Positions 26,176-40,716 of a stretch of DNA of 64,000 bases are shown here, one piece after another. The DNA lies in contig NZ_QZEZ01000001.1 of the NCBI RefSeq assembly GCF_003594885.1, positions 620,001 through 684,000 on the forward strand, written 5' to 3'. The notes beneath the pieces were generated by a model. That model was not told the origin of the DNA. It searched no databases and was given only the letters and a program-made list of their open reading frames with translations. The translations under genes were made by a program, and so were the position numbers. This DNA comes from Vallicoccus soli (lineage in GTDB: Bacteria; Actinomycetota; Actinomycetes; Motilibacterales; Motilibacteraceae). Each line of letters starts with the position of its first letter. Position 1 is the first letter of the stretch.

Positions 26176-26204
26176 TTGACCGCTCCCCGGACCGTAGGTA
26201 TGTT
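26176..26204 (+). promoter_or_regulatory. Predicted promoter of the murein-hydrolase genes
   Basis: TTGACC (26176-26181), a 17-base spacer and TATGTT (26199-26204) form a good vegetative promoter 66 bases before the nagZ start. An imperfect inverted repeat with CCGGA and TCCGG arms (26187-26208) covers the -10 box and could be an operator. Confidence 0.6.
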
Positions 26205-26270
26205 CCGGCGCACCGCAAGACCCGGTGAACGAGCAACATCCGCCCGGTGACCCAGCACCCAGGAGGCCCC

Positions 26271-28142
26271 GTGCCCCGCTCCACCCCGCCCCGCGAGCAC
26301 CGGCGCAGCGCCGGGCTCGGTGGCGCCCTCGCCCTCGCCGTCGCGGCGGGCTCGCTGCTCGCGGCGCCCGCCGCCGCGGCTCCCGCCGCCCCCGCCCCGC
26401 AGGCGGCCCCTGCCGCCCAGGCCGGCGTAGCCCAGCCGCCGGCCGCGGCCCGCGGCTACGCCCAGCGGACCCTGCGCCGGATGACGCTGGAGGAGAAGGT
26501 CGGCCAGCTCATCACGGGCTACGCCTACGGCTCCTCCGCGACCACCGCCGACCCGCGCAACGAGGCGCTCTACGGCGAGGGCGTCGCGACGCCCGCCGAC
26601 GTCGTCGAGCGCTACCACCTCGGCGGCGTCATCTACTTCGCCTGGACCGACAACGTGCGCAACCCCTCGCAGACCGCCGCGCTGTCCAACGGCCTCCAGG
26701 ACGCGGCCCTGTCCAGCGGCGCGGAGGTCCCGCTGCTCATCAGCACCGACCAGGAGCAGGGCGTCGTCACCCGGCTCGGCCCGCCCGCGACCGCGCTGCC
26801 GGGCGCGATGGCCCTCGGCGCCGGGCGCAGCAGCACCGACGCGCGCCGCGCGGCCGCCATCACCGGCACCGAGCTCGCCGCGGTCGGGATCCGCCAGGAC
26901 TTCGCGCCCGTCGCCGACGTCAACGTCGACCCCGCCAACCCGGTCATCGGCGTCCGGTCGCACTCGAGCGACCCGCAGCTCGCGGCGCGGATGGTCACCG
27001 CGCAGGTCCGCGGCTTCCAGGGGGACGCGGGCGTCGTCGCCACCGCGAAGCACTTCCCGGGGCACGGCGACACCTCGACGGACAGCCACGTCGGGCTGCC
27101 GGTCATCGACCACACCCGCGAGGAGTGGGAGCGCATCGACGCGCCGCCCTTCCGGGCGGCGGTCGCCGCGGGCGTCGACTCGATCATGACGGCGCACATC
27201 GTCGTCCCCAGCCTCGACCCGTCGGGCGACCCGGCGACCCTCAGCGAGCCGATCATCACCGGGGTGCTGCGCGGGGAGCTCGGCTACGACGGCGTCGTCA
27301 CGACGGACTCCCTCGAGATGGCCGGCGTCCGCCAGCAGTACGGCGACGGCGAGGTCGCGGTGCGCGCCCTCGAGGCCGGCGCCGACGTCCTGCTCATGCC
27401 CGCCGACCCCGCCGCGGCGGTCGAGGCGATCCACGAGGCCCTCGACGGCGGCCGGCTCACCGAGCGGCGCATCGACCAGTCCGTGCGCCGCGTCCTCGAG
27501 CTGAAGCACCGCCGGGGCGTCGTGCAGGAGCCGTACGCCGACCCGGACCGCGTCGGCGCCGTCGTGGGCAGCGACGCCCACCGCGCCGAGGCGCAGGCCA
27601 TCAGCGACCGCACCGTGACGGTGCTGCGCGACGACGCCGGCCTGCTGCCCCTCGCGGCCGGCGCGCGCAGGGTGCTCGTCGCCGGCCCCGGCGCCGGGCC
27701 GACCGCGGCGCTGTCCGCGGCGCTGGGCCGACGCGGCCACGCGGTCACCACGCTCGAGACCGGCACCCGCCCGAGCGACGCCGCCCTCGACGCGGCGGCG
27801 GCCGGCGCCGCGCGCAGCGACCTCGTCGTCGTCCTCACCAACAAGGCCTGGGACCGCGCGGTCACCGACCGGGAGGGCCGTCAGCAGCGGCTCGTCGCGG
27901 GGGTCGTGGCGAGCGGGACGCCCGTCGTGCACGTCGCGGTCCGCGACCCGTACGACGTCGCGCACCTGCCCGGCGCCACGACGAGCCTGGCGACGTACTC
28001 GACCACGGACGTCTCGATGGAGTCGGTGGCCCGGGTCGTCACCGGCGAGGTGGCGCCGCACGGGAGGCTGCCCGTCGACGTCCCGCGCGCCGACGACCCG
28101 TCGCAGGTCCTCCTGCCCTTCGGGACGGGGGTGACCTGGTGA
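26271..28142 (+). CDS. nagZ: Secreted GH3 beta-N-acetylglucosaminidase, NagZ-type
   Basis: Exported glycosidase of 623 residues that removes terminal GlcNAc from murein fragments. A signal peptide spans about 1-40. The GH3 barrel carries the NagZ signature KHFPGHGDTSTDSH (260-273), which supplies the His/Asp acid-base, and the nucleophile D346 in TTDSLEM. A C-terminal alpha/beta domain follows, as in the two-domain secreted NagZ of Bacillus subtilis. AGGAGG precedes GTG at 26271; an earlier GTG at 26247 lacks such a site. Its stop overlaps the namZ start (GTGA). Both exo-enzymes together would release GlcNAc and MurNAc alternately from glycan ends. Confidence 0.93.
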   Translation: MPRSTPPREHRRSAGLGGALALAVAAGSLLAAPAAAAPAAPAPQAAPAAQAGVAQPPAAARGYAQRTLRRMTLEEKVGQLITGYAYGSSATTADPRNEALYGEGVATPADVVERYHLGGVIYFAWTDNVRNPSQTAALSNGLQDAALSSGAEVPLLISTDQEQGVVTRLGPPATALPGAMALGAGRSSTDARRAAAITGTELAAVGIRQDFAPVADVNVDPANPVIGVRSHSSDPQLAARMVTAQVRGFQGDAGVVATAKHFPGHGDTSTDSHVGLPVIDHTREEWERIDAPPFRAAVAAGVDSIMTAHIVVPSLDPSGDPATLSEPIITGVLRGELGYDGVVTTDSLEMAGVRQQYGDGEVAVRALEAGADVLLMPADPAAAVEAIHEALDGGRLTERRIDQSVRRVLELKHRRGVVQEPYADPDRVGAVVGSDAHRAEAQAISDRTVTVLRDDAGLLPLAAGARRVLVAGPGAGPTAALSAALGRRGHAVTTLETGTRPSDAALDAAAAGAARSDLVVVLTNKAWDRAVTDREGRQQRLVAGVVASGTPVVHVAVRDPYDVAHLPGATTSLATYSTTDVSMESVARVVTGEVAPHGRLPVDVPRADDPSQVLLPFGTGVTW

Positions 28143-29437
28143 CCCGGGGCACGAGCCGCCGCGCGTTCCTCGCCGGCACCGGCGCCGCCGTCGCGGCGCC
28201 CGCCCTGGGGGCCGCGGCCCCCGCCGCGGCCTCCGGGCGCCCCTCCGGCGTCGTCCCCGGCGTCGACGTCCTCGCCGCGCAGGGCTGGTCGCTGCTGCGC
28301 GGTCAGCGCGTCGGCGTGGTCACCAACCCGACCGGGGTGCTGCGCGACCTGCGGCACGAGGTCGACGCCATGGCGGCCTCGGGCGCCGTCGACCTCGTCG
28401 CGGTCTTCGGCCCGGAGCACGGTTTCCGCGGGGCCGCCCAGGCGGGCGGCTCCGAGGGCACGTACGAGGACCCCCGCACCGGCGTCACGGTCTACGACGC
28501 CTACGGCGCCACGGCCGACGACCTGGCCGCCATGTACGCCGCCGCCGACGTCGACACGGTCGTCTTCGACATCCAGGACGTGGGCTCGCGGTTCTACACC
28601 TACGTCTGGACGATGTACGACGCCATGGTCGCCGCCGCGCGGGCCGGCAAGCGCTTCGTGGTGCTGGACCGGCCCAACCCGGTCGGCGGCTCGCCGCGCG
28701 GCCCGCTCATGACGCCGGCCTTCACGACGTTCGTCGGCAAGCGCGAGGTCGTGCAGCAGCACGGCATGACCGTCGGCGAGCTGGCCCGGCTGTTCGACGA
28801 GGAGTTCGTGCCCGACGAGGCGGGCCGGCGGGTGCCGCGCCTCGACGTGGTGGAGGCGCGCGGGTGGCGCCGGGACGTGCTCTGGGAGCAGACCGGCCTG
28901 GAGTGGGTGATGCCGAGCCCCAACATGCCGACGCCGACCACCGCGCTCGTCTACCCGGGCACGTGCCTGTTCGAGGGCACGAACCTGTCCGAGGGGCGCG
29001 GCACCACGCGCCCGTTCGAGCTCGTGGGAGCGCCCTGGGCGGACCACCGGTGGGCGGAGGCGCTGCGCGCGCTCGACCTGCCGGGGGTGCTGGTGCGCGA
29101 GGCGTACTTCCAGCCCACGATCAGCAAGCACGCGGGGGCGACCTGCGGCGGCGTGCAGCTGCACGTCACCGACCCGCACCGGTTCGAGGCGGTCCGCACG
29201 GCGGTGGCCATGCTCGTGACCGCCAAGGAGCTCTACGCCGACTTCGCGTGGCGCTACGACTCCTACGACCCGCAGCGGCCGTACTGGGTCGACAAGCTGT
29301 CGGGCTCGCCGCGGCTGCGCGAGATGGTCGACGCCGGCGCGGGCGTCGACGAGGTCGAGGCGGCCTGGCAGCAGGAGCTGCGCGCGTTCGCGCGGCTGCG
29401 GCGGCCGTACCTGCTCTACCCCGGGCGCTCGTCGTGA
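28139..29437 (+). CDS. namZ: Exo-beta-N-acetylmuramidase NamZ (GH171, DUF1343)
   Basis: Exported hydrolase of 432 residues of the former DUF1343, now GH171, whose B. subtilis member removes MurNAc from non-reducing glycan ends. A Tat signal is visible (SRRAFLAG, residues 6-13). Family hallmarks are FGPEHGFRG (E93), DIQDVGSRFYTYVWTM, MPSPNMPTPTTALVYPG and FEGTNLSEGRGTTRPFE. It sits between NagZ and the beta-lactamase-fold hydrolase, the same trio as in the B. subtilis mur cluster. Start and stop both overlap neighbours by four bases, indicating coupled translation. The exported enzyme must act in the cell wall. Confidence 0.95.
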   Translation: MTRGTSRRAFLAGTGAAVAAPALGAAAPAAASGRPSGVVPGVDVLAAQGWSLLRGQRVGVVTNPTGVLRDLRHEVDAMAASGAVDLVAVFGPEHGFRGAAQAGGSEGTYEDPRTGVTVYDAYGATADDLAAMYAAADVDTVVFDIQDVGSRFYTYVWTMYDAMVAAARAGKRFVVLDRPNPVGGSPRGPLMTPAFTTFVGKREVVQQHGMTVGELARLFDEEFVPDEAGRRVPRLDVVEARGWRRDVLWEQTGLEWVMPSPNMPTPTTALVYPGTCLFEGTNLSEGRGTTRPFELVGAPWADHRWAEALRALDLPGVLVREAYFQPTISKHAGATCGGVQLHVTDPHRFEAVRTAVAMLVTAKELYADFAWRYDSYDPQRPYWVDKLSGSPRLREMVDAGAGVDEVEAAWQQELRAFARLRRPYLLYPGRSS

Positions 29438-31170
29438 GGGCCGCGGTGCTCGCGGGCGCCACGGTGCTGGCCCTCCTGGCGAGCGTCGCGCCCGCGGCTG
29501 CGGGGGACGCCGCGCGGTTCGACCAGCCGCGCCGGGGCTTCAGCCCGGCCGGTACGGAGCTCCGCGACAGCTCGCCGCGCGCGGCGGGCCTCGACCCGGC
29601 GCCGGTCAGGGAAGCGCTTGCCGCGGTGGAGCGAGGTACGCGCGAGGGTGGCGCCGACGCGTCGGGCACCTCGCGGCCGCTCTTCTCCGGCGCGGTCACG
29701 GTCATGGCGACCGGCGGCGAGGTCGTCGCCCGGGAGGCCACGGGATGGGCGCTGCGCTACGCCGACGGGCAGGGCACGGAGCTGCCCCGCGACCAGTGGG
29801 AGCCGGTCACCGAGGACACGGTCTTCGACATGGCGTCGGTGTCCAAGCTCTTCACGTCCGTCGTCGTCATGCAGCAGGTCGAGGCCGGCCGGGTCGACCT
29901 CGACGAGCCCGTCGCGACGTACCTGCCGGAGTTCGCCGCGGGCGGCAAGGAGGGCGTGACCGTCCGGCACCTGCTCACCCACACCGGGGGGCTGCCGGCC
30001 TGGCTGCCGCTCTGGAGCGCGTACCCGGACCCGGGCTCGCGCCTGCGCGCGGCCCTCGAGGCCACCCCGGTCGGCGCGCCGGGGGAGCAGTACCTCTACA
30101 GCGACCTCGGCCTCATCGCGCTCGGCGCGCTCGTGGAGCGGGTCAGCGGCGACCCGCTCGACGCGCTCGTGGCCGAGGGCGTCACCGGGCCCCTGGGCAT
30201 GGTGGACACCGGCTACAACCCCACCGGCGACGTCCGGGACCGGGCGGCGGCCACGGAGCACCAGACGACCCCGCCGCGCGGCATGGTCCGCGGGGAGGTC
30301 CACGACGAGAACGCGTGGGCCCTCGGCGGCGTCTCCGGGCACGCCGGGGTCTTCTCCACGGCGCGCGACATGTCCGTGCTCGCCCAGGCGATGCTCGACG
30401 GCGGCACCTACGCCGGAGAGCGCATCCTCTCCCGGTCCTCGGTCGAGCAGATGCTGGCCGACGAGAACCGCGAGTTCCCGGGCGACGCCCACGGCCTGGG
30501 GTTCGAGCTCGACCAGCGCTGGTACATGGGGGCGCTCAGCGGCCCGCGCACCGCCGGGCACACGGGCTACACCGGCACCTCGCTGGTCCTGGACTACCAG
30601 TCCGGCTCCTTCGCCGTGCTGCTCACCAACCGGGTCCACCCCTCGCGCAGCTGGGGGTCGGTCAACGCCGTGCGCCGCGCGGTCGCCGACGGCCTCGCCC
30701 GGGCGCTGCGGGTGCCGCCGCGCGAGGGCCGCACGGCCTGGGCGACCCCCACGACCGACGCCACGACCTCCACGCTCACCGCGGCGGTCGAGGTGCCGGC
30801 CCGCGGCGGCCGCCTCGCCTTCGACCTGTTCGTCGACACCGAGGCGACCGACGTGCTGGCGCTGGAGACCTCCGCGGACGGCGGGGCCACCTGGTCCCCG
30901 CTGCCGTTCGACGTGCGCGACCGCGGCGTGGTGACGCGCACGGACGGGACCGTCGCCGGTGCGGGGCACCGCACCTGGTGGCAGGCATCCACCCGGCTGC
31001 CCGCGGGCGACCTGCTCCTGCGGTGGCGCTACACCACCGACGCGGGCGAGCAGGGCCGGGGCGTCCTCGTCGACGGCGTCGTCGCCAGGTCCGGCGGGCA
31101 GGTGCTGCTCGACGGCGAGCGGCGCCCGGGCGCGTTCACCGGCGTGGGCTGGCGGACCGTCCGCGGGTGA
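29434..31170 (+). CDS. Secreted beta-lactamase-fold hydrolase, AmiE-like, with C-terminal beta domain
   Basis: Exported serine hydrolase of 578 residues. A signal peptide spans about 1-23. The class C beta-lactamase fold shows SVSK (S135, K138), YSD at 222-224 where many relatives have YxN, and HTG at 376-378. In the B. subtilis cluster the equivalent AmiE cleaves the MurNAc-L-Ala amide bond; that activity is inferred here from position. After about residue 430 an extra beta-sandwich-like domain follows (LRWRYTTDAGEQGRG), a probable accessory module not seen in the short AmiE form. The start overlaps the namZ stop; murR begins eleven bases after this stop. Confidence 0.88.
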   Translation: MRAAVLAGATVLALLASVAPAAAGDAARFDQPRRGFSPAGTELRDSSPRAAGLDPAPVREALAAVERGTREGGADASGTSRPLFSGAVTVMATGGEVVAREATGWALRYADGQGTELPRDQWEPVTEDTVFDMASVSKLFTSVVVMQQVEAGRVDLDEPVATYLPEFAAGGKEGVTVRHLLTHTGGLPAWLPLWSAYPDPGSRLRAALEATPVGAPGEQYLYSDLGLIALGALVERVSGDPLDALVAEGVTGPLGMVDTGYNPTGDVRDRAAATEHQTTPPRGMVRGEVHDENAWALGGVSGHAGVFSTARDMSVLAQAMLDGGTYAGERILSRSSVEQMLADENREFPGDAHGLGFELDQRWYMGALSGPRTAGHTGYTGTSLVLDYQSGSFAVLLTNRVHPSRSWGSVNAVRRAVADGLARALRVPPREGRTAWATPTTDATTSTLTAAVEVPARGGRLAFDLFVDTEATDVLALETSADGGATWSPLPFDVRDRGVVTRTDGTVAGAGHRTWWQASTRLPAGDLLLRWRYTTDAGEQGRGVLVDGVVARSGGQVLLDGERRPGAFTGVGWRTVRG

Positions 31171-31180
31171 GGGGCCTACC

Positions 31181-32098
31181 GTGAGGCGCGTGAGCGACCT
31201 CGTCGTGCCGGAGCAGGGGGGCGCCGCCGGCGCCCCCCTGCTCGTCCGCCTGCGCGCGGCCCTGCCGGACCTCGCGCCGGCGGAGCGCCGCGTCGGCCAG
31301 CGGGTGCTCGACGACCCGTACGGCACGGCCGCCCTGACCATCTCCGAGCTCGCGCAGGCGGCGGCCACCTCGGAGACGACGGTCATCCGCTTCTGCAAGG
31401 CGCTGGGGCTGCCGGGCTACCCGCAGCTGCGGCTCACCCTGGCCGCGGAGTCGGGCGGCGGGGGCGCCGCGCAGGAGGTGGGCGCGGAGATCGGCCCCGA
31501 CGACGACCTGCGCGACGTGGTGGCCAAGGTGGCGTGGGCCGACGCCCGCGCCGTCGAGGAGACCGCCCAGCAGCTCGACGTCCCGGCGCTGGAGCGGGTC
31601 GTGGACGCCCTGGCGGGGGCTGCGCGCGTCGACGTGTACGGCGTCGGGGCAAGCGCTTTCGTCGCCGCCGACCTGCAGCAGAAGCTGCACCGGATCGGGC
31701 GGGTGGCCTTCGCCTGGTCCGACACCCACATCGCGCTCACCTCGGCGGCGCTGCTGCGCCCCGGCGACGTCGCGGTCGCGGTGAGCCACACCGGCACGAC
31801 CGCGGAGGTCGTCGAGGCCCTGCGCCTCGCCGGCCGGCGGGGTGCCACGACCGTGGCGGTGACCAACTTCCCGCGCTCGCCGGTGGCCCGCGCGGCCGAC
31901 CACGTCCTCACGACGGCCGCGCGCGAGACGACGTACCGCTCGGGCGCCATGGCGAGCCGCATCGCGCAGCTCGTCCTCGTCGACTGCCTCTTCATCGGCC
32001 TCGCGCAGCGCCTGCTGCCCGAGGCGCGCGAGGCGCTCGGGGTCACGTACGAGGCCGTGCGCGCGCACCACCTCGACGGGCGCTCCGCCGACCGTTGA
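31181..32098 (+). CDS. murR: MurR/RpiR-family transcription regulator
   Basis: Regulator of 305 residues. An N-terminal RpiR helix-turn-helix domain (about 20-95, with TISELAQAAATSETTVIRFCKALG) is followed by a SIS sugar-phosphate-binding domain (about 125-270, with VYGVGASAFVA and AVSHTGTTAEVV). Family knowledge: MurR represses MurNAc catabolic genes and is released by MurNAc 6-phosphate. The GTG start at 31181 has GAGGGG at 31169-31174; GTG at 31190 is an alternative. It lies between the hydrolase genes and murQ, and a perfect inverted repeat between murR and murQ is its likely binding site. Confidence 0.92.
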   Translation: MRRVSDLVVPEQGGAAGAPLLVRLRAALPDLAPAERRVGQRVLDDPYGTAALTISELAQAAATSETTVIRFCKALGLPGYPQLRLTLAAESGGGGAAQEVGAEIGPDDDLRDVVAKVAWADARAVEETAQQLDVPALERVVDALAGAARVDVYGVGASAFVAADLQQKLHRIGRVAFAWSDTHIALTSAALLRPGDVAVAVSHTGTTAEVVEALRLAGRRGATTVAVTNFPRSPVARAADHVLTTAARETTYRSGAMASRIAQLVLVDCLFIGLAQRLLPEAREALGVTYEAVRAHHLDGRSADR

Positions 32099-32128
32099 CG
32101 CGCCGCTCGGAGGTAATTAACCTCCGAG
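32095..32128 (+). promoter_or_regulatory. murQ promoter with overlapping perfect operator palindrome
   Basis: TTGACG (32095-32100) is followed 17 bases later by TAACCT (32118-32123), so transcription should start at or next to the A of the murQ ATG (32130), giving a leaderless mRNA. Arms CTCGGAGGT (32106-32114) and ACCTCCGAG (32120-32128) form a perfect 9-bp inverted repeat around AATTA, covering the spacer and -10 box. Binding here would block polymerase, and MurR is the obvious candidate. The GGAGGT within the left arm is too far from the ATG for an ordinary ribosome site. Confidence 0.7.
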
Positions 32129-32129
32129 C

Positions 32130-33086
32130 ATGACGGTGACCCGGAAGGAAACCTTCGAGGCGGTCCCGGGGCCCACGGAGCTGCGCAACCCGCGCACCAC
32201 GGGGATCGACGCCCTCGGGACGCTCGAGGTCCTGCACCTGCTCAACGACGAGGACGGGCGCGTCCCCGCCGCGGTCCGCGCGGTCCTGCCGGCCCTCGCC
32301 CGGGCCGTCGACCTCGCGGTGGAGCGGGTGCGCGCGGGCGGGCGGGTCCACTACTTCGGGGCGGGCACCTCGGGCCGCCTCGCGGTCCTCGACGCGGCCG
32401 AGCTGCTGCCGACGTTCAACGCGCCGCCGGGGCTGGTCGTCGCGCACCACGCCGGCGGGGCGGAGGCGCTCGTGCGGGCGGTCGAGGAGGTCGAGGACTC
32501 CGAGGCGCTCGGTGCGCGCGAGGCCGCCGCCGTCGGCCCGTCCGACCTGGCCCTGGGGATCACCGCCTCGGGCCGCACGCCCTACGTGGCGGGCGCGCTC
32601 GCCGCCGCGCGCCGCACGGGCGCGGCCACGGTGCTCGTGACGTCCGACCCGGCCAGCGCGCTCGCGCCGCTGGCCGACGTGCTCGTCGCGCCCGACACCG
32701 GCCCCGAGGCCGTCGCGGGCTCCACCCGCCTCAAGGCGGGCACGGCGCAGAAGCTCCTGCTCAACGGCTTCTCGACCGCGCTCATGGTCCGGCTGGGCCG
32801 CACCTGGTCGAACCTCATGGTCGACGTCGTGCCCACGAACGCCAAGCTGCGCCGGCGGGTGGTCCGCATCCTCGGCGAGGCCACGGGGGCCGACGAGCAG
32901 GCCTGCCTCGAGGCGCTGGACGCCTGCGGGGGCGAGCTCAAGACCGCCCTCGTCCACATGCTGACGGGGGCGCCGCCGGCCGCGTGCCGCGACGCCCTCG
33001 CTGCGGCCGGCGGCGTGGCCGCCGACGCCGTGACCCGACTCCAGGCAGCGGGGCACCCCCTGCCCGACGCCACTCACCGGAGGTAG
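32130..33086 (+). CDS. murQ: N-acetylmuramic acid 6-phosphate etherase MurQ
   Basis: SIS-fold etherase of 318 residues that splits MurNAc 6-phosphate into GlcNAc 6-phosphate and D-lactate, the committed step of MurNAc use. Family signatures are TELRNPRTTGID near the start, VHYFGAGTSGRLAVLDAAE, ITASGRTPYV, and GSTRLKAGTAQKLLLNGFST with NLMVDV. Length fits MurQ. The ATG lies one base after an operator-like palindrome and lacks a spaced Shine-Dalgarno site. The lipoprotein gene for sugar binding begins five bases after its stop, so uptake and cleavage are co-expressed. No nagA or nagB is in this window. Confidence 0.97.
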   Translation: MTVTRKETFEAVPGPTELRNPRTTGIDALGTLEVLHLLNDEDGRVPAAVRAVLPALARAVDLAVERVRAGGRVHYFGAGTSGRLAVLDAAELLPTFNAPPGLVVAHHAGGAEALVRAVEEVEDSEALGAREAAAVGPSDLALGITASGRTPYVAGALAAARRTGAATVLVTSDPASALAPLADVLVAPDTGPEAVAGSTRLKAGTAQKLLLNGFSTALMVRLGRTWSNLMVDVVPTNAKLRRRVVRILGEATGADEQACLEALDACGGELKTALVHMLTGAPPAACRDALAAAGGVAADAVTRLQAAGHPLPDATHRR

Positions 33087-33090
33087 TGGA

Positions 33091-34386
33091 ATGCGTTTCC
33101 CAACCCCTGCCCGGGCCCTGCTCGGCGCGGCCGGAGCGGTCGCCCTGCTCGTCTCCTGCGCACCCTCCGACGAGGGGTCCGCGGGCGGCTCCGCCGCCGG
33201 CGAGGGCGGCGACCAGACCGTCACCGTCTGGTCGTGGCGCACGGAGGACGCGGCGGCGTACGAGCAGATCTTCGACGCGTACGAGGAGGCGAACCCGGGG
33301 GTCACCGTCGACTTCCGCGCCTTCAAGAACACCGAGTACAACCAGATCCTCAGCACGGGCCTCACGGGGGACGGCGGTCCCGACGTGGCCCAGCTGCGGG
33401 CGTACGGCCAGCTGCAGCCGCTCGTCGAGGGCGGCGACCTCGTGCCGCTGCCGGACGACGTCGACGTGGCGGGCTTCGACGAGACGGTGCTCGAGGGCGC
33501 CCGGGGCCGCGAGGACGGCGAGCTCTACGGCGTGCCGTTCGCCGTGCAGACCCTGCAGGTCTACTACAACAAGGGGCTCTTCGCGGACAACGGCATCGAG
33601 GTGCCCACCACCTGGGAGGAGATGCTCCAGGCCGCGCAGACCCTGCAGGAGGCCGGCGTCACGCCCTTCGCGGTGGGCGCCAAGGACGCCTGGACGCTGC
33701 CGATCCTGCACGACATCGTGGGGTCCGCCCGCTACGGCGGCCCGCAGTTCGAGCAGCAGGTCCTGAGCGGGGAGAAGGACTTCACCGACCCGGCGTGGGT
33801 GGACTCCCTCGGCCTGCTCGGGCAGCTGCAGCCCTACATGCCCGAGGACGTCGTCGGCGTCGCGTACACCGACGCGCAGGTGCTGTTCACCTCCGGCCAG
33901 GCCGCGATGTTCCCCGGCGGCTCCTTCGAGCTCGGCTTCTTCCAGGAGCAGGCGCCGGACCTCGACATGGGGGTCTTCGAGGTGCCGCCGCCGCCCGGCT
34001 CGGTGCTCACCGAGCCCGTCACGCCCGGGTACGCCGACGGCTCCTTCGGGGTCTCGGCGGCGAGCGACGCGCCCGACGCGGCGATGGACCTCGTGCGCTG
34101 GATGGCGACGCCCGAGTTCGGCCAGGCCTTCACCGACGCGGTCAAGCAGCTCTCGCCGGTCCCCGGCGTGGAGCCCAGCGACCCGCTGCTGCAGGAGATG
34201 GCGACGAACTACGAGGAGAGCGGCGCGCCGTACCTCATGCTCGTCGACTTCCGGTACGGCCAGCCGCTCGGCACCGACCTCGTCGGCACCGGGGTGCAGG
34301 AGCTGCTGCTCGGGCAGAAGGACGCCCCGGCGGTCGCGCAGGACGTCCAGGCGGGGATCTCGTCGTGGTTCACGCCCCAGGGGTGA
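33091..34386 (+). CDS. Sugar ABC transporter substrate-binding lipoprotein
   Basis: Family 1-type extracellular solute-binding protein of 431 residues. The signal peptide ends in the lipobox LVSC (C at about 23), which anchors it in the membrane. Motifs such as VTVWSWRTED near the N-terminus, YGVPFAVQTLQVYYNKGLF and the PTTWEEM loop are typical of carbohydrate-binding members. Position directly after murQ and before two permeases suggests that it binds MurNAc or GlcNAc-MurNAc released by the exported hydrolases; the ligand is inferred. GGAGG lies nine bases before the ATG, and the stop overlaps the next GTG. Confidence 0.9.
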   Translation: MRFPTPARALLGAAGAVALLVSCAPSDEGSAGGSAAGEGGDQTVTVWSWRTEDAAAYEQIFDAYEEANPGVTVDFRAFKNTEYNQILSTGLTGDGGPDVAQLRAYGQLQPLVEGGDLVPLPDDVDVAGFDETVLEGARGREDGELYGVPFAVQTLQVYYNKGLFADNGIEVPTTWEEMLQAAQTLQEAGVTPFAVGAKDAWTLPILHDIVGSARYGGPQFEQQVLSGEKDFTDPAWVDSLGLLGQLQPYMPEDVVGVAYTDAQVLFTSGQAAMFPGGSFELGFFQEQAPDLDMGVFEVPPPPGSVLTEPVTPGYADGSFGVSAASDAPDAAMDLVRWMATPEFGQAFTDAVKQLSPVPGVEPSDPLLQEMATNYEESGAPYLMLVDFRYGQPLGTDLVGTGVQELLLGQKDAPAVAQDVQAGISSWFTPQG

Positions 34387-35333
34387 CGCGGCGCCGGGGC
34401 GCCCGGCCGGCGGCGGGGGGCGCGCCGGCCGGGCTGACCCTCGGGCGGGCCGCGCTCTTCGTGGCGCCGGCGCTCGTGCTCTTCGGGGTGTTCGTGCTCT
34501 ACCCGATGGTCACGGCGTTCTCGTACGCCTTCTACGACTGGCGGGGCACGGCGCGCGGGGGCTTCGCCGGCCTCGAGAACTTCACGACGCTGTTCACCGA
34601 GGCGCCGTACGCCGACCAGCTCCCGCGGGCCTTCGGGCACAACCTGCTGTTCTTCGCGGGCACCATGCTCGTCCAGAACACGCTGGGCCTGGGGTTCGCC
34701 GTGCTCCTGCACCGCGGACGGAGGAGCAAGCGCCTGCTGCAGACGCTCTACGCGATGCCCTACCTCGTGAGCCCGCTGGTCATCGGCTACCTGTGGACCC
34801 TGCTGCTCTCGCCCACCTTCGGCCCGGTGAACGCGCTGCTCGAGGCCGTGGGCCTCGGCTCGCTCGCCCAGCCCTGGCTCGGCGACCCGACCACCGCGCT
34901 GCCGGTCATCGTGCTCATCAGCGCCTGGCAGTGGGTCGGCTTCCCCGTGCTGCTCTACGGCGCGGCCCTCGGCGGCCTGCCCGAGGAGCTCTCCGAGGCG
35001 GCGCGCATGGACGGCGCGAGCTCGTGGCAGGTCTTCCGGCGCATCACGCTGCCGCTGCTGCTGCCGGCCATCGGCACCGTCGGCGTGCTCACCTTCATCA
35101 TGGCGATGGAGGCCTTCGCCCTGCCGTACGCCCTGGGCGGCTCCACGGGAAGCCCGGCGGGCGCGACCGACGTGCTCTCCCTGCTCTTCTACCGGACGGC
35201 CTTCGAGTCCGGTGCGACCAACGCCATCGGCGTCTCCTCCGCGCTCGCCACGGTCCTGTTCGCCGTCATCTTCGGCGGCGCCGTCCTGGCGACCCGGGTG
35301 CTGCGCCGCCAGGAGGAGGCGATGCTCCGGTGA
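34383..35333 (+). CDS. Sugar ABC transporter permease, first subunit
   Basis: MalF-type permease of 316 residues with about six transmembrane segments. The cytoplasmic coupling motif EEAxxDGA..xxFxxI..P appears as EAARMDGASSWQVFRRITLPLLLP. The N-terminus is short and basic. The GTG start overlaps the lipoprotein stop (GTGA), and its own stop overlaps the next permease, so three transport genes are translationally chained. No ATPase gene is in this operon. Function follows from context as import of murein amino sugars. Confidence 0.92.
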   Translation: MTRRRGARPAAGGAPAGLTLGRAALFVAPALVLFGVFVLYPMVTAFSYAFYDWRGTARGGFAGLENFTTLFTEAPYADQLPRAFGHNLLFFAGTMLVQNTLGLGFAVLLHRGRRSKRLLQTLYAMPYLVSPLVIGYLWTLLLSPTFGPVNALLEAVGLGSLAQPWLGDPTTALPVIVLISAWQWVGFPVLLYGAALGGLPEELSEAARMDGASSWQVFRRITLPLLLPAIGTVGVLTFIMAMEAFALPYALGGSTGSPAGATDVLSLLFYRTAFESGATNAIGVSSALATVLFAVIFGGAVLATRVLRRQEEAMLR

Positions 35334-36232
35334 GCGACGTCGTCCAGACCGCCACCGCCCTGCCCGTCGGCGTCGCCGTCGACGAGCGCCCCCCGTCGCG
35401 GCGCCCCCGCCGCCGGCGCGGCGCAGGCCCCGTCGTCGCCTCCGGGCTGCTCTGGGGCTACGCCGTGGTCGCGGTCGCCCCGCTGCTCGTCATGGTGGTC
35501 AGCTCGCTGCGCCCCACCCGCGAGCTGTACGACCAGCCCCTCGCGCTGCCGTGGCCGCTCTCGGTGGAGAGCTACCGCACGGCGTGGACGGAGGCGTCGT
35601 TCGGCACGTACTTCCTGACCTCGCTGCTCGTCACCGTCGGCGCGGTCCTGCTCTCGACGGCGGTGGCGACCCTCGCCGCGTACGGCCTGGCGCGCAGCCG
35701 GTCCCGCGTCATGCGCGGGCTCGAGGCGCTCTTCCTGTCCGGGCTCATGCTCCCGATCCACCTGGCGATCCTGCCGATCTTCTACCTGCTCGACGGCTTC
35801 GGCCTCGTCGACAGCCGGCTCGGCCTGACGCTGGTGTACGCCGCCGCCGGCGTCCCGTTCTCCGTGTTCGTCCTCACGACCTTCTTCCGCCAGCTCCCGC
35901 TGGACCTGGAGGAGGCCGCGCGGATCGACGGGGCGGGCGCCTTCGCCACCTTCCGGCACGTCATGCTGCCGCTGGTGCGCCCGGCCATGGCCACGGTGCT
36001 CGTCTTCCGCTTCGTGCCTGTGTGGAACGACTTCCTCTACCCCCTCGTGCTGCTGCGCAGCAGCGAGAAGTACACCCTCCCCGTGGGGCTGACGACGTTC
36101 TTCGGCGAGTACCAGACCGACTGGTCGACGCTCTTCGCCGGGCTCGTCATCGCCACCCTGCCCCTCGTGCTGCTGTTCGTCCTCGCGACGCGGCAGATCG
36201 TCGCCGGCCTCACCGCCGGCATGGGGCGGTGA
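35330..36232 (+). CDS. Sugar ABC transporter permease, second subunit
   Basis: MalG-type permease of 300 residues with six predicted membrane helices after a basic Arg/Pro-rich N-terminal tail. The EAA loop reads EEAARIDGAGAFATFRHVMLP. A conserved VWNDFLYPLVLL segment near the C-terminus is typical of the family. Start and stop overlap the neighbouring genes by four bases. It completes the membrane channel of the importer; the missing nucleotide-binding subunit must come from elsewhere, as with MsiK or UgpC-type multitask ATPases. Confidence 0.92.
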   Translation: MSDVVQTATALPVGVAVDERPPSRRPRRRRGAGPVVASGLLWGYAVVAVAPLLVMVVSSLRPTRELYDQPLALPWPLSVESYRTAWTEASFGTYFLTSLLVTVGAVLLSTAVATLAAYGLARSRSRVMRGLEALFLSGLMLPIHLAILPIFYLLDGFGLVDSRLGLTLVYAAAGVPFSVFVLTTFFRQLPLDLEEAARIDGAGAFATFRHVMLPLVRPAMATVLVFRFVPVWNDFLYPLVLLRSSEKYTLPVGLTTFFGEYQTDWSTLFAGLVIATLPLVLLFVLATRQIVAGLTAGMGR

Positions 36233-37179
36233 TCAGCGGGTCAGGACAGCGTCGTCCTGACGGCACCCCCGTCGCCGGCGTCGACGTCGGCGGCGGGGGC
36301 TGCCGGGTCCGCGTCGCGTGGCCCGGCGGCAGCGCCGAGGGCGCGGGGGAGGGCGTACGGGTCCGCGGCGCCGGCATCGACGTCGACGAGGTGGCCGCCG
36401 CGGTGGCCGCGGTGCTGGGCCGGCTCCGGGCGCAGGGCGCCCCCGCCCCGGGGGCCGTGGGACTGGGCATGACCGGCCTGCTCACGCTCGCCGACCGCCC
36501 GGGCGGGCTGCACGCCGCGCTGCGCGAGCGCCTCGGCGTCGCGCGCACGGTGGTCGCACCGGACGCGGTGACCGCGCTCGTCGGCGCGCTCGGCGGCCTC
36601 GTGCCCGGCGCGGTGGTCGCCGCCGGCACCGGCGCGATCGCGCTGGGCACCGACGGGCGCGGGGCCTGGCGGCGCGTCGACGGCTGGGGGCACCTGCTCG
36701 GCGACGACGGGGCGGGCTCCTGGGTCGGGCAGGCGGGGCTGCGCGCGGCCTTCCGCGCCCACGACGGCCGCCCCCGCGGGTCGGCCCGGCTGCTCGAGCT
36801 CGCCCGGGCCCGCTACGGCGCCCCCGAGGACCTGCCCCGCGCGCTCTACCCCGCGCCCGACCGGGCCGCGCGCCTCGCGGCGTTCGCCCCCGACGTCGCC
36901 CTGGCCGCGCGCGAGGGCGACCCGGTGGCGGCGGCGGTGTGGCGCGGCGCGGGGGAGCGGCTCGCCGAGGCGCTGCTCGCGGCCGTGCCCCCGGGCGTGC
37001 CCGACCCGGCGCTCAGCCGCACGGGCGGCCTCTTCGCGGCCGGCGGGCTGCTGCTCGAGCCGCTCGCGGCCGCGCTGGCGGCCGCCGGCGCGCCGCCGCT
37101 GCGCGCGCCGCGGGGCGGCCCGCTGGACGGCGCGGTGCTCCTCGCCCGCGACGGCGCGGAGGCGGGGCCGGCGGCCTGA
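36229..37179 (+). CDS. BadF/BadG-type ATPase, probable MurNAc/GlcNAc kinase
   Basis: ASKHA-fold kinase of 316 residues. The phosphate-1 motif is GVDVGGGGCRVRV and the phosphate-2 region VVAAGTGAIALGTD; a GDDGAGSWVG loop (WGHLLGDDGAGSWVGQAGL) is typical of the N-acetylglucosamine-kinase branch of the BcrAD/BadFG family. That branch includes Clostridium MurK, which phosphorylates both GlcNAc and MurNAc at C6. Here it would make the MurNAc 6-phosphate used by MurQ, replacing the PTS phosphorylation of B. subtilis; this is inference from family and context. The GTG start overlaps the permease stop, and it is the last gene of the locus. Confidence 0.85.
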   Translation: MISGSGQRRPDGTPVAGVDVGGGGCRVRVAWPGGSAEGAGEGVRVRGAGIDVDEVAAAVAAVLGRLRAQGAPAPGAVGLGMTGLLTLADRPGGLHAALRERLGVARTVVAPDAVTALVGALGGLVPGAVVAAGTGAIALGTDGRGAWRRVDGWGHLLGDDGAGSWVGQAGLRAAFRAHDGRPRGSARLLELARARYGAPEDLPRALYPAPDRAARLAAFAPDVALAAREGDPVAAAVWRGAGERLAEALLAAVPPGVPDPALSRTGGLFAAGGLLLEPLAAALAAAGAPPLRAPRGGPLDGAVLLARDGAEAGPAA

Positions 37180-37353: not shown

Positions 37354-40300
37354 ATGCCCCTGCACGACGACGCCCCGCGCACCCCGGGCGACCCCGAGCC
37401 CCTCCCGGGCCTGCACCGGGACCGCGACGGGCTGGTCCGCGCCGCCGTGCGCCACGCGCGCCGCCTCGAGGTGCTGCTGCAGCTGGGCCTGCTCGGCGAG
37501 CGCGGGGCCGAGGAGCTCGACGACATCGCGGCGCTCGCCGCGGCCGTGGCCGGGGCGCCGAGCGCGGCGGTGAGCATCGCGCTGCCCGAGCGGGTCGTCT
37601 TCGCCGGACGGCACGGCCTGCCCGGCGGCCGGCGCCTCGACGTGCCGGAGACGAGCGTGCCGTGCGCCCACGTGGTGGCCGGGCGCGCCGCGGTGCGGGT
37701 CGTCGACGCGACCCTCGACCCGTACTGGGAGAGCACCGAGCTGGTCGTGGCGGGGGCGCTGCGCGGCTACGCCGGGCACCCCGTCGTCGTCGAGGACCAG
37801 GTGCTCGCCTCGCTGTGCGTGCTCGGGGACCAGCCCCTCGACCTGCCCCCGGAGGCGCACCGGCGCCTCGCCGCGCTCGCGCGCCAGGTCTCGGACCTGC
37901 TCACCCTGCGCCTGCGGGTGCAGGACCTGCAGGACGACCGCGAGCAGCTGCACTCCGAGCGCGGTCTGCTGCACCAGCTCAACGCCGGCCAGCCGGTCGG
38001 CGAGGTGCTGCGCCTGCTCGCGGCGCAGGTCGTGGAGGGCCAGGAGGGCGCCGCCGCGCTCGTGCTGCGCGTGCTCGGCGGGCGGCTGCGGGTGGCGGCC
38101 GCCCACGGGCTCGGGCCGGTCGAGCGCGCCGTGCTCGACGACCTGCCGGCGACGCCGGTGGGCGGGCCGCTGGGCGAGGCCGCGCAGCGGGGGGTGCCGG
38201 TGGACACCGCCGGGCTCGCCGAGGACTACCCGGCGCTCGGGCACCGCCTGCGCGCCGCGCGCGCCGTGCCGGTGCTCGGCCCGAGCGGGGCGGTGCTGGG
38301 CGTGCTCGCGCTGCTGACCCGCCAGGAGCGGGTCGAGCCGCGGGCCGGCGCCCGCCTGCTCGCCGCGGCGAGCCTGGCGGGCCTGGCACTGCGCCGCGAG
38401 GAGTCCGAGGGCGCGCGCGGCCAGGGCGGCGAGCGGCTGCGGGACGCGCTCACCGGCCTGCTCACCCGCGTCGGCTTCCTCTCCGCGGCGGTGGAGGCCG
38501 TACGGGGCGTGCCCGGCCCCCACGCGCTGCTGTGCCTCGACCTGGACCGGCTGGCCGTGGTCAACGACTCGCTCGGCCACCAGCACGGCGACGCCCTGCT
38601 CGCCGTCGTCGCCGAGCGCCTGCGCGAGACGGTGCGCGCCAGCGACCTCGTGGGACGGCTCGGCGGGGACGAGTTCGCCGTGCTGTGCCCCGGCCTCGAC
38701 GCCGCCGCCGCCGCCGAGGTGGCCCGCCGGCTCGCCGCGGACGTCGCGCGCCCCGTGCCCTTGGCGGGGTCGCCCGTCGCGGTGACCGCGAGCGTGGGCG
38801 TCGCCGCCGCGGACGCCACCGACGACCTCGTCGCCGTGCTCCGCGCCGCCGAGCACGCCGTCGTCGCGGCCAAGGCCGGCGGGCGGGGGCGCGTCGCCCT
38901 CGCCGACCCGGAGGCCGCGAGCGCCGCGCAGGAGAGCAACCTGCTCGAGCTGGACCTGCGGCGCCTGCTCGACGGCGGCGCCCCCGGCGCCCAGCTGCGC
39001 CTGGTCTACCAGCCGCAGGTCGACCTCGCCGACGGGCGCGTCTCGGGCCTGGAGGCCCTGCTGCGGTGGGACCACCCCGCGCGCGGCGCGGTGCCCCCCG
39101 ACCAGTTCATCGCCGTCGCGGAGGACGCCGGCCTCATGCCGGTGCTCGGCGACCACGTGCTGCGCGAGGCCCTCGAGCAGCACCGGCGCTGGCAGGAGGA
39201 GGGGGCGCCCTGGGCCGCCAGCGTGGTCTGGGTCAACGTGTCGGGCCGCCAGCTCGAGGAGCGCGGCTTCGCCGCCCGCGTCGCCCGGGCCCTCGCCGAC
39301 CACCAGGTCGACGCCGAGCGCCTGGGGCTCGAGATCACCGAGAGCGTCGTCACCGGGCGCACGCCCACCGCCCGGCGCGAGCTCGCCGCGCTGCGCGGGC
39401 TGGGCGTGCGGCTCGCCGTCGACGACTTCGGGACCGGGTTCTCCAACCTCGCGCTGCTGCGCGGGGCACCGCTCGACGTGGTCAAGGTGGACCGCTCGCT
39501 GGTCGCCGGCATGGGGCGCGACCGCGACGGCGCCCGGCTCGTCGACGCGGTCCTCGGCCTCGCGCGCGCCTTCGACCTCGAGGTCGTCGCCGAGGGCGTG
39601 GAGACCGCCGAGCAGCTCGACGCCCTCGTGGACCGCGCCTGCACCTCCGCGCAGGGCTACCTGCTGGGCCGGCCCGTGCCCGCCGGCGAGCTCGTCGCGC
39701 CGCCCGCGGTGCCGGCACGCGGGGGTGCGTCGGAGCAGGCGGCACCCCCGGCCGTGCCCGGGGCCCCGCCGGTCTTCGCCGACTTCCGCTCGGCCGCCGC
39801 GGCCGTGCTGCGGCTGCTGCGCGACGAGGTGGGCATGGACCTCTGGGCGGTCTGCCGCGCCTCCGGCGACGACCAGGTCGTCCTGCTCGCCGAGCGGGAG
39901 GCCGGTTCCGCGTACGGCTTCGCCGAGGGCGACGCCCTGCCGTGGCAGTCCTCGCTGTGCCGGCGGATGCTCCACGGGACGGCGCCCAAGGTCGCCCCGC
40001 GGGTCGAGGAGGTGCCGGCCTACGCCACCGCCGGCAACCGCTCGCTCCTGCCCATCGCCGCCTACGTCGGGATGCCGCTGCACGACCACCGCGGCGACGT
40101 GTTCGGCACGCTCTGCGGCTTCGACGCCCGCGAGCAGCCGGAGCGGCTGCGCGAGGCCGAGCCCCGCATCGAGCTCCTCGCCCGGTTGCTCTCGACCCTG
40201 CTGGCCCGCGAGCTCGCCCAGGACGAGCTGGCCCGCCGGCTCGAGCGCGCCGAGGCCGACGCGGCGCGCGACCCCCTCACCGGGCTCGCGAACCGGCGCG

Positions 40301-40716
40301 GCTGGGCGGACGTGCTCGCCCGCGAGGAGGCGCGCTGCCGGCGGTACGGGGGCCCGGCCTCCGTCGTCGTGCTCGACCTCGACGCGCTCAAGGAGGTCAA
40401 CGACACGCAGGGCCACGCCGCGGGCGACGACCTGCTGCGCCGCACCGCCCGGGTGCTGCGCGGCACCGCCCGCAGCGTGGACCTCGTCGCCCGCCTCGGC
40501 GGGGACGAGTTCGGGGTGCTGTCGGTGCAGGCCGACGGCGCGGGGGTCGACGCCGAGGTGCGCCGGCTCGGCGCCGCCCTCGACGAGGCCGGCGTCGTGG
40601 CGAGCATCGGCTGCGCCGCGCGCGGGGCGGGCGGCACGCTCGCCGACGCGTGGGCCGCTGCCGACGCGGCCATGTACGCGCAGAAGCGGGCGCGAGGGGG
40701 CCGCGCGGCGGGGTAG
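37354..40716 (+). CDS. Six-domain cyclic-di-GMP protein GAF-GAF-GGDEF-EAL-GAF-GGDEF
   Basis: Soluble signalling protein of 1120 residues. Two GAF-like domains (about 45-190 and 205-350) are followed by GGDEF domain 1 (motif 437-441), an EAL domain starting near 545 (EALLRW at 567, [32 protein letters not shown] all present), a third GAF (about 806-960) and GGDEF domain 2 (motif 1049-1053). Both GGDEF motifs are intact and each has an RxxD inhibitory site five residues upstream (RASD and RSVD). The EAL catalytic residues look complete, so both synthesis and breakdown of c-di-GMP are possible. No transmembrane segment is seen. The ATG has no clear ribosome site. Confidence 0.93.

Follow-up and report, generated by a model that had tools for sequence, protein, structure and literature searches.

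A predicted MurR operator overlying the -10 of an apparently leaderless murQ promoter in Vallicoccus soli

Here we describe a predicted regulatory site at murQ, the MurNAc 6-phosphate etherase gene of Vallicoccus soli, within a 64-kb stretch of DNA (the window) that was analysed together with the rest of the genome and with the genomes of relatives. We consider it likely that the core of a palindrome at murQ is a MurR operator placed on the -10 of a leaderless promoter, that it acts together with a paired operator at nagZ, and that MurNAc 6-phosphate brings about release. The geometry of the murQ promoter and its conservation, an operator motif shared with relatives, a 31-bp pairing of sites at nagZ and a single rpiR-family protein, MurR, can all be read from the DNA; since related bacteria have this layout as well, what we see is probably a genuine switch of a familiar general type, open to testing, and not a palindrome that arose by chance.

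The MurNAc cluster and the murQ promoter

The cluster runs in the order nagZ, namZ, hydrolase, murR, murQ, ABC sugar-binding protein, two permeases and a BadF-type kinase, with every gene on the forward strand:

26271-28142, forward strand: nagZ, GH3 family, beta-N-acetylglucosaminidase-like, with AGGAGG just upstream of its GTG
28139-29437, forward strand: namZ, exo-beta-N-acetylmuramidase family (PF07075, PF20732)
29434-31170, forward strand: serine hydrolase with a beta-lactamase/PBP4B-like fold (PF00144; weak NF002968 match)
31190-32098, forward strand: murR, RpiR-family regulator (HTH_6 and SIS domains, Pfam)
32130-33086, forward strand: murQ, MurNAc 6-phosphate etherase (NCBIfam NF003915, 353.9 bits against a cut-off of 168)
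33091-34386, forward strand: ABC sugar-binding protein (PF01547)
34383-35333, forward strand: ABC permease 1 (PF00528)
35330-36232, forward strand: ABC permease 2 (PF00528)
36229-37179, forward strand: BadF/BadG-type sugar kinase, MurK/NagK-like (PF01869)

Genes for the MurQ etherase, NagZ, NamZ, the kinase and the transporter are thus found together, the combination by which a MurNAc catabolic cluster is recognised, and relatives in Kribbella and Terrabacter keep most of the order. MurR is the sole rpiR-family HTH_6 protein found in the genome; it matches the NCBIfam equivalog for E. coli MurR (NF012026) with 130 bits, below the cut-off of 408, so its name rests on gene context. Within the first murR codons, window positions 31211-31243 form an inverted repeat (GAGCAGGGGGGCGCCGCCGGCGCCCCCCTGCTC) whose 15-bp arms pair perfectly; it might influence translation of murR or indicate that the true start lies further downstream.

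The promoter assigned to murQ has two hexamers:

32095-32100, forward strand: -35 hexamer TTGACG, of which TTGA is conserved in 35/35 relatives
32118-32123, forward strand: -10 hexamer TAACCT, preceded by a spacer of 17 in 35/35 relatives

In the window the sequence between them reads as a 17-nt spacer (32101-32117), and the murR stop codon TGA (32096-32098) falls inside the -35 hexamer, an overlap that recurs in two Kribbella species (L073, L133). Only six nucleotides, CCGAGC, separate the -10 from the ATG at 32130, which would place +1 on or beside the A of that ATG; the reading TTGACG-N17-TAACCT of the preliminary description, from which it had predicted a transcription start on or beside the murQ ATG, is confirmed. 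There is no usable Shine-Dalgarno sequence before murQ, the sole GGAGG (32109-32113) being 16 nt from the ATG and within the dyad described below.

Upstream regions of murQ in relatives were taken from public genomes, giving 35 distinct promoters with murR just upstream, from Kribbella, Terrabacter, Terracoccus, Knoellia, Lapillicoccus, Nakamurella and others. All 35 contain TTGAN-N17-TAACNT followed by an in-frame murQ start, and the gap from the -10 to that start is 6-7 nt in 34 of them; in the remaining one it is 4 nt, with an in-frame GTG at 7 nt. As any spacer from 16 to 18 and any gap from 3 to 12 would have been accepted in the search, this uniformity was not imposed. The layout of a leaderless murQ is therefore conserved among relatives at the level of sequence, which supports the earlier proposal that murQ is leaderless, and in Vallicoccus soli the message appears to begin at the start codon. 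Promoters of this type are ordinary in the genome, judging from 11 matches to TTGAC-N17-19-TANNNT-N5-8-RTG against 0 for the reversed pattern. A TTGACG-TAACTT promoter at locus L027 was set aside as a murQ promoter, as it is actually that of murR. In Terracoccus (L060), the gap from murR to the murQ promoter holds several direct repeats of almost the same sequence (CTCGAGTGAGCGCC...).

The palindrome, the operator motif and the nagZ pair

Three features lie on or near the murQ -10, none of them assigned to a strand:

32105-32129: perfect palindrome GCTCGGAGGTAATTAACCTCCGAGC, 25 bp, with 10-bp arms, a 5-bp centre and its axis at 32117, abutting the ATG
32109-32125: predicted MurR operator core GGAGGTAATTAACCTCC, 17 bp, containing two mirror-image 13-bp registers
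32144-32156: possible weak partner site GAAGGAAACCTTC, doubtful, score 0.1, 31 bp centre to centre from the 32113 register

The preliminary description had reported a perfect 23-base palindrome on the -10, with arms CTCGGAGGT (32106-32114) and ACCTCCGAG (32120-32128) around the centre AATTA (32115-32119). Its perfection and its place hold good, but an outer pair that had been missed, G32105-C32129, lengthens the dyad to 25 bp and brings it up against the ATG. A scan of the 4.04-Mb genome for the same arms, which had been suggested as a check, finds the 23-mer at murQ only, even with up to 3 mismatches allowed. As an operator unit, in contrast, the 23-bp palindrome is not upheld: relatives conserve a core of 13-17 bp, and the outer arms, 4 bp on each side of the 17-bp core, lie outside the conserved motif and are lineage-specific, possibly forming an RNA hairpin. 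The dyad by itself is unremarkable, since palindromes with 10-bp arms are frequent in the GC-rich 64 kb (9 distinct, against ~5 expected under an order-2 null); what is remarkable is its exact placement on the promoter, and the evidence of conservation weighs more than the dyad. CGGAGGT-N5-ACCTCCG was also considered as a generic regulon signature and rejected, as it gave hundreds of matches and no regulon.

With conservation weighted over ~20 effective sequences, the murQ promoters of relatives retain, besides the hexamers, a block O1 (GTNACTSATTYAC, corresponding to 32078-32090) and a block O2 (GTRRGAAASTAAC, at 32109-32121), neither of which is needed by a promoter. O1 has dyad symmetry of its own; the sequence in the region that matches it best in inverted orientation is O2, whose centre lies 31 bp from that of O1. 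A 16-mer over O2 occurs once per genome in nine relatives at no more than 2 mismatches, and so is not a generic promoter word. From the murQ promoters of relatives alone we derived a 13-bp operator-like motif. Its best single match in the 64-kb window is the register 32109-32121 (score 14.3), and the mirror register 32113-32125 (score 8.2) ranks fifth. Part of this score comes from -10 bases common to any TAAC promoter; for the 9 core bases that do not belong to the -10, the score is one that ~0.1% of window 9-mers attain. The earlier suggestion of a MurR operator over the murQ -10 thus gains support from motif conservation in relatives.

The window murQ lacks the O1 partner that relatives have upstream (score -23.7 at 32078), and the downstream candidate at 32144-32156 has a score matched or exceeded by 0.2% of window positions. 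On the sequence, then, this promoter has lost its usual partner site, and its 17-bp core takes the lone-site form seen at murR promoters of other actinobacteria. The double-register arrangement, in which a second register overlaps the first at a distance of 4 bp, occurs at 29/45 murR-proximal promoters of those organisms. Where murR heads a murRQ operon, as in Micromonospora, Actinomadura and Amycolatopsis, it is the murR promoter that carries this motif, with an in-frame start only a few bases further on, which suggests that murR may be leaderless in such lineages (loci L063, L084, L074, L270 and similar ones). We rejected equating the -10 block of relatives with the dyad of the window palindrome, because the window axis (32117) and the O2 axis of relatives (32115) lie 2 bp apart; the palindrome is accordingly treated as a 17-bp double-register form and not as an improved O2.

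Scanning nagZ upstream regions with the murQ-derived motif provided an independent test. A match lies over the nagZ -10 in 26 distinct relatives, and a second one exactly +31 bp away in 24 of the 26, the two exceptions being Kribbella. These +31 sites have a mean score of 12.3, against an average of -19 over all offsets, and only 4/2470 other placements exceed 7. The window nagZ promoter carries the same arrangement:

26176-26204, forward strand: nagZ promoter TTGACC-N17-TATGTT
26194-26206, no strand: predicted MurR site A, GTAGGTATGTTCC, over the -10
26225-26237, no strand: predicted MurR site B, GTGAACGAGCAAC, exactly 31 bp from site A

Site A is identical at 12/13 positions to GTAGGTAAGTTCC of many relatives, and the two sites form the best 31-bp pair in the window, their summed score being 15.7 and that of the runner-up 8.3. 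With 1 mismatch allowed, a tightened pair pattern matches at the nagZ promoter alone in the whole genome. Twelve relatives were searched for a similar pattern, which turned up no more than one or two times in any genome and for the most part at nagZ. A near-palindromic, promoter-overlapping predicted site is therefore common to the murQ and nagZ operons of the window. Pairing over about three helical turns is present at the window nagZ and at both murQ and nagZ of relatives, whereas the window murQ has no upstream partner and only a weak candidate downstream. A stretch common to the murQ and nagZ -35 regions of the window (GACCGTTGAC) was set aside as probably due to chance.

Alternative explanations for the palindrome

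The palindrome could act in RNA. On this account, which we regard as possible if unlikely, read-through mRNA from nagZ-murR would fold into a 10-bp hairpin against the AUG, blocking ribosome entry or ending transcription, so that murQ would be translated only from leaderless mRNA and binding at the DNA level would play a minor part or none. The perfect arms give -18.4 kcal/mol for the 25-mer as RNA (region z-score -3.3), the outer four pairs of each arm go beyond the operator core, and a leaderless mRNA from the ATG would exclude the hairpin, all of which fits. However, relatives have no comparable hairpin at the same place, whereas their operator motif is conserved; hairpins with 10-bp arms are frequent in the GC-rich DNA of the window, and there is neither a U-tract nor a terminator call. 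A terminator role as such was rejected for the lack of both a T-tract and a terminator call. The palindrome might also serve twice, as a MurR operator in DNA and, in read-through mRNA of the murR operon, as a hairpin that closes the murQ start and leaves the leaderless, MurNAc-induced transcript as the only source of MurQ, a combination that we find distinctly unlikely.

Binding by a regulator other than MurR seems to us quite improbable. The palindrome does depart from the O2 consensus of relatives at 3/13 bases, with a shifted axis, and other regulator families use palindromes too, but murR, encoding the sole HTH_6 protein found, lies 31 bp away, the core is the top motif match in 64 kb, and the palindrome is single-copy in the genome, which makes a global regulator unlikely. 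Still less credible is a chance dyad on an ordinary leaderless promoter, with murQ regulated only through read-through from nagZ: about nine such palindromes occur per 64 kb and the genome has many leaderless-type promoters, yet the operator-like bases outside the -10 fit the motif of relatives at the level of ~0.1% of 9-mers, and the layout is conserved in 35 relatives.

Predicted regulation and relation to known systems

We thus favour MurR acting as a repressor at the DNA. Without MurNAc 6-phosphate, MurR on the -10 would block polymerase at the murQ-ABC-murK genes, and the paired operator over the nagZ -10 would control nagZ-namZ-hydrolase-murR; as that set includes murR, MurR would also limit its own synthesis. 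Uptake and phosphorylation of MurNAc would yield MurNAc 6-phosphate, which would free MurR from the DNA, after which transcription would start on or beside the A of the murQ ATG to give an mRNA without a leader. By analogy with E. coli MurR, the regulator is likely to act at both promoters by steric hindrance and to be released by MurNAc 6-phosphate; binding and repression by MurR, the identity of the inducer and the precise start of the murQ mRNA are what we infer here.

The layout of the E. coli murQ operon, and the release of MurR repression by MurNAc 6-phosphate, have been described (PMC5061867), and the E. coli MurR tetramer has been proposed to bridge two sites over the -35 and -10 that are 17 bp apart (PMC12713135, preprint). 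The likeness lies in an RpiR/SIS regulator encoded beside murQ, in operators, here predicted, that overlap the promoter and, at the window nagZ and in relatives, in two such sites about three helical turns apart; the 18 bp between two 13-bp sites in Vallicoccus soli and its relatives is very similar to the 17 bp of E. coli, a comparison of geometry and not of sequence. The differences are that murR and murQ are divergent in E. coli but co-directional in Vallicoccus soli, that transport is by a PTS in the former whereas it looks like ABC plus kinase in the latter, and that the Vallicoccus soli murQ promoter looks leaderless, with one clear predicted site instead of two. The B. subtilis cluster has the same pathway genes, nagZ included, and a ybbC that we take to be a NamZ-type gene. 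Its order is murQ-murR-murP-amiE-nagZ-ybbC (PMC5061867), with one promoter before the cluster and a PTS transporter, in contrast to the two predicted MurR-controlled promoters of Vallicoccus soli.

For translation in mycobacteria it is enough that an mRNA begins with ATG or GTG (PMC4633059). Mycobacterial leaderless genes are a translation class, to which murQ of Vallicoccus soli adds a predicted repressor site on the -10. Within the RpiR family, HexR-type operators may be comparable near-palindromic sites of HTH_6 regulators. The NanR/RccR-type operators are similar in their near-palindromic sites, HTH_6 regulators and sugar-phosphate effectors (PMC12713135), although the consensus of HexR/RccR/NanR-type operators differs from the Vallicoccus soli motif.

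In a limited literature search we found no published actinobacterial MurR operator. The present work offers a testable operator consensus and a predicted two-promoter regulon for cell-wall sugar recycling in several actinobacterial groups, in which a predicted repressor site on the -10, beside the start codon, is conserved jointly with an apparently leaderless promoter. Two further observations concern the cluster and its surroundings. Two Kribbella species (L259, L261) carry two nagZ-like genes in tandem, and in the window an ORF 3' of the cluster (37354-40716, 1120 aa) appears by eye to encode a GAF/GGDEF/EAL-type signalling protein.
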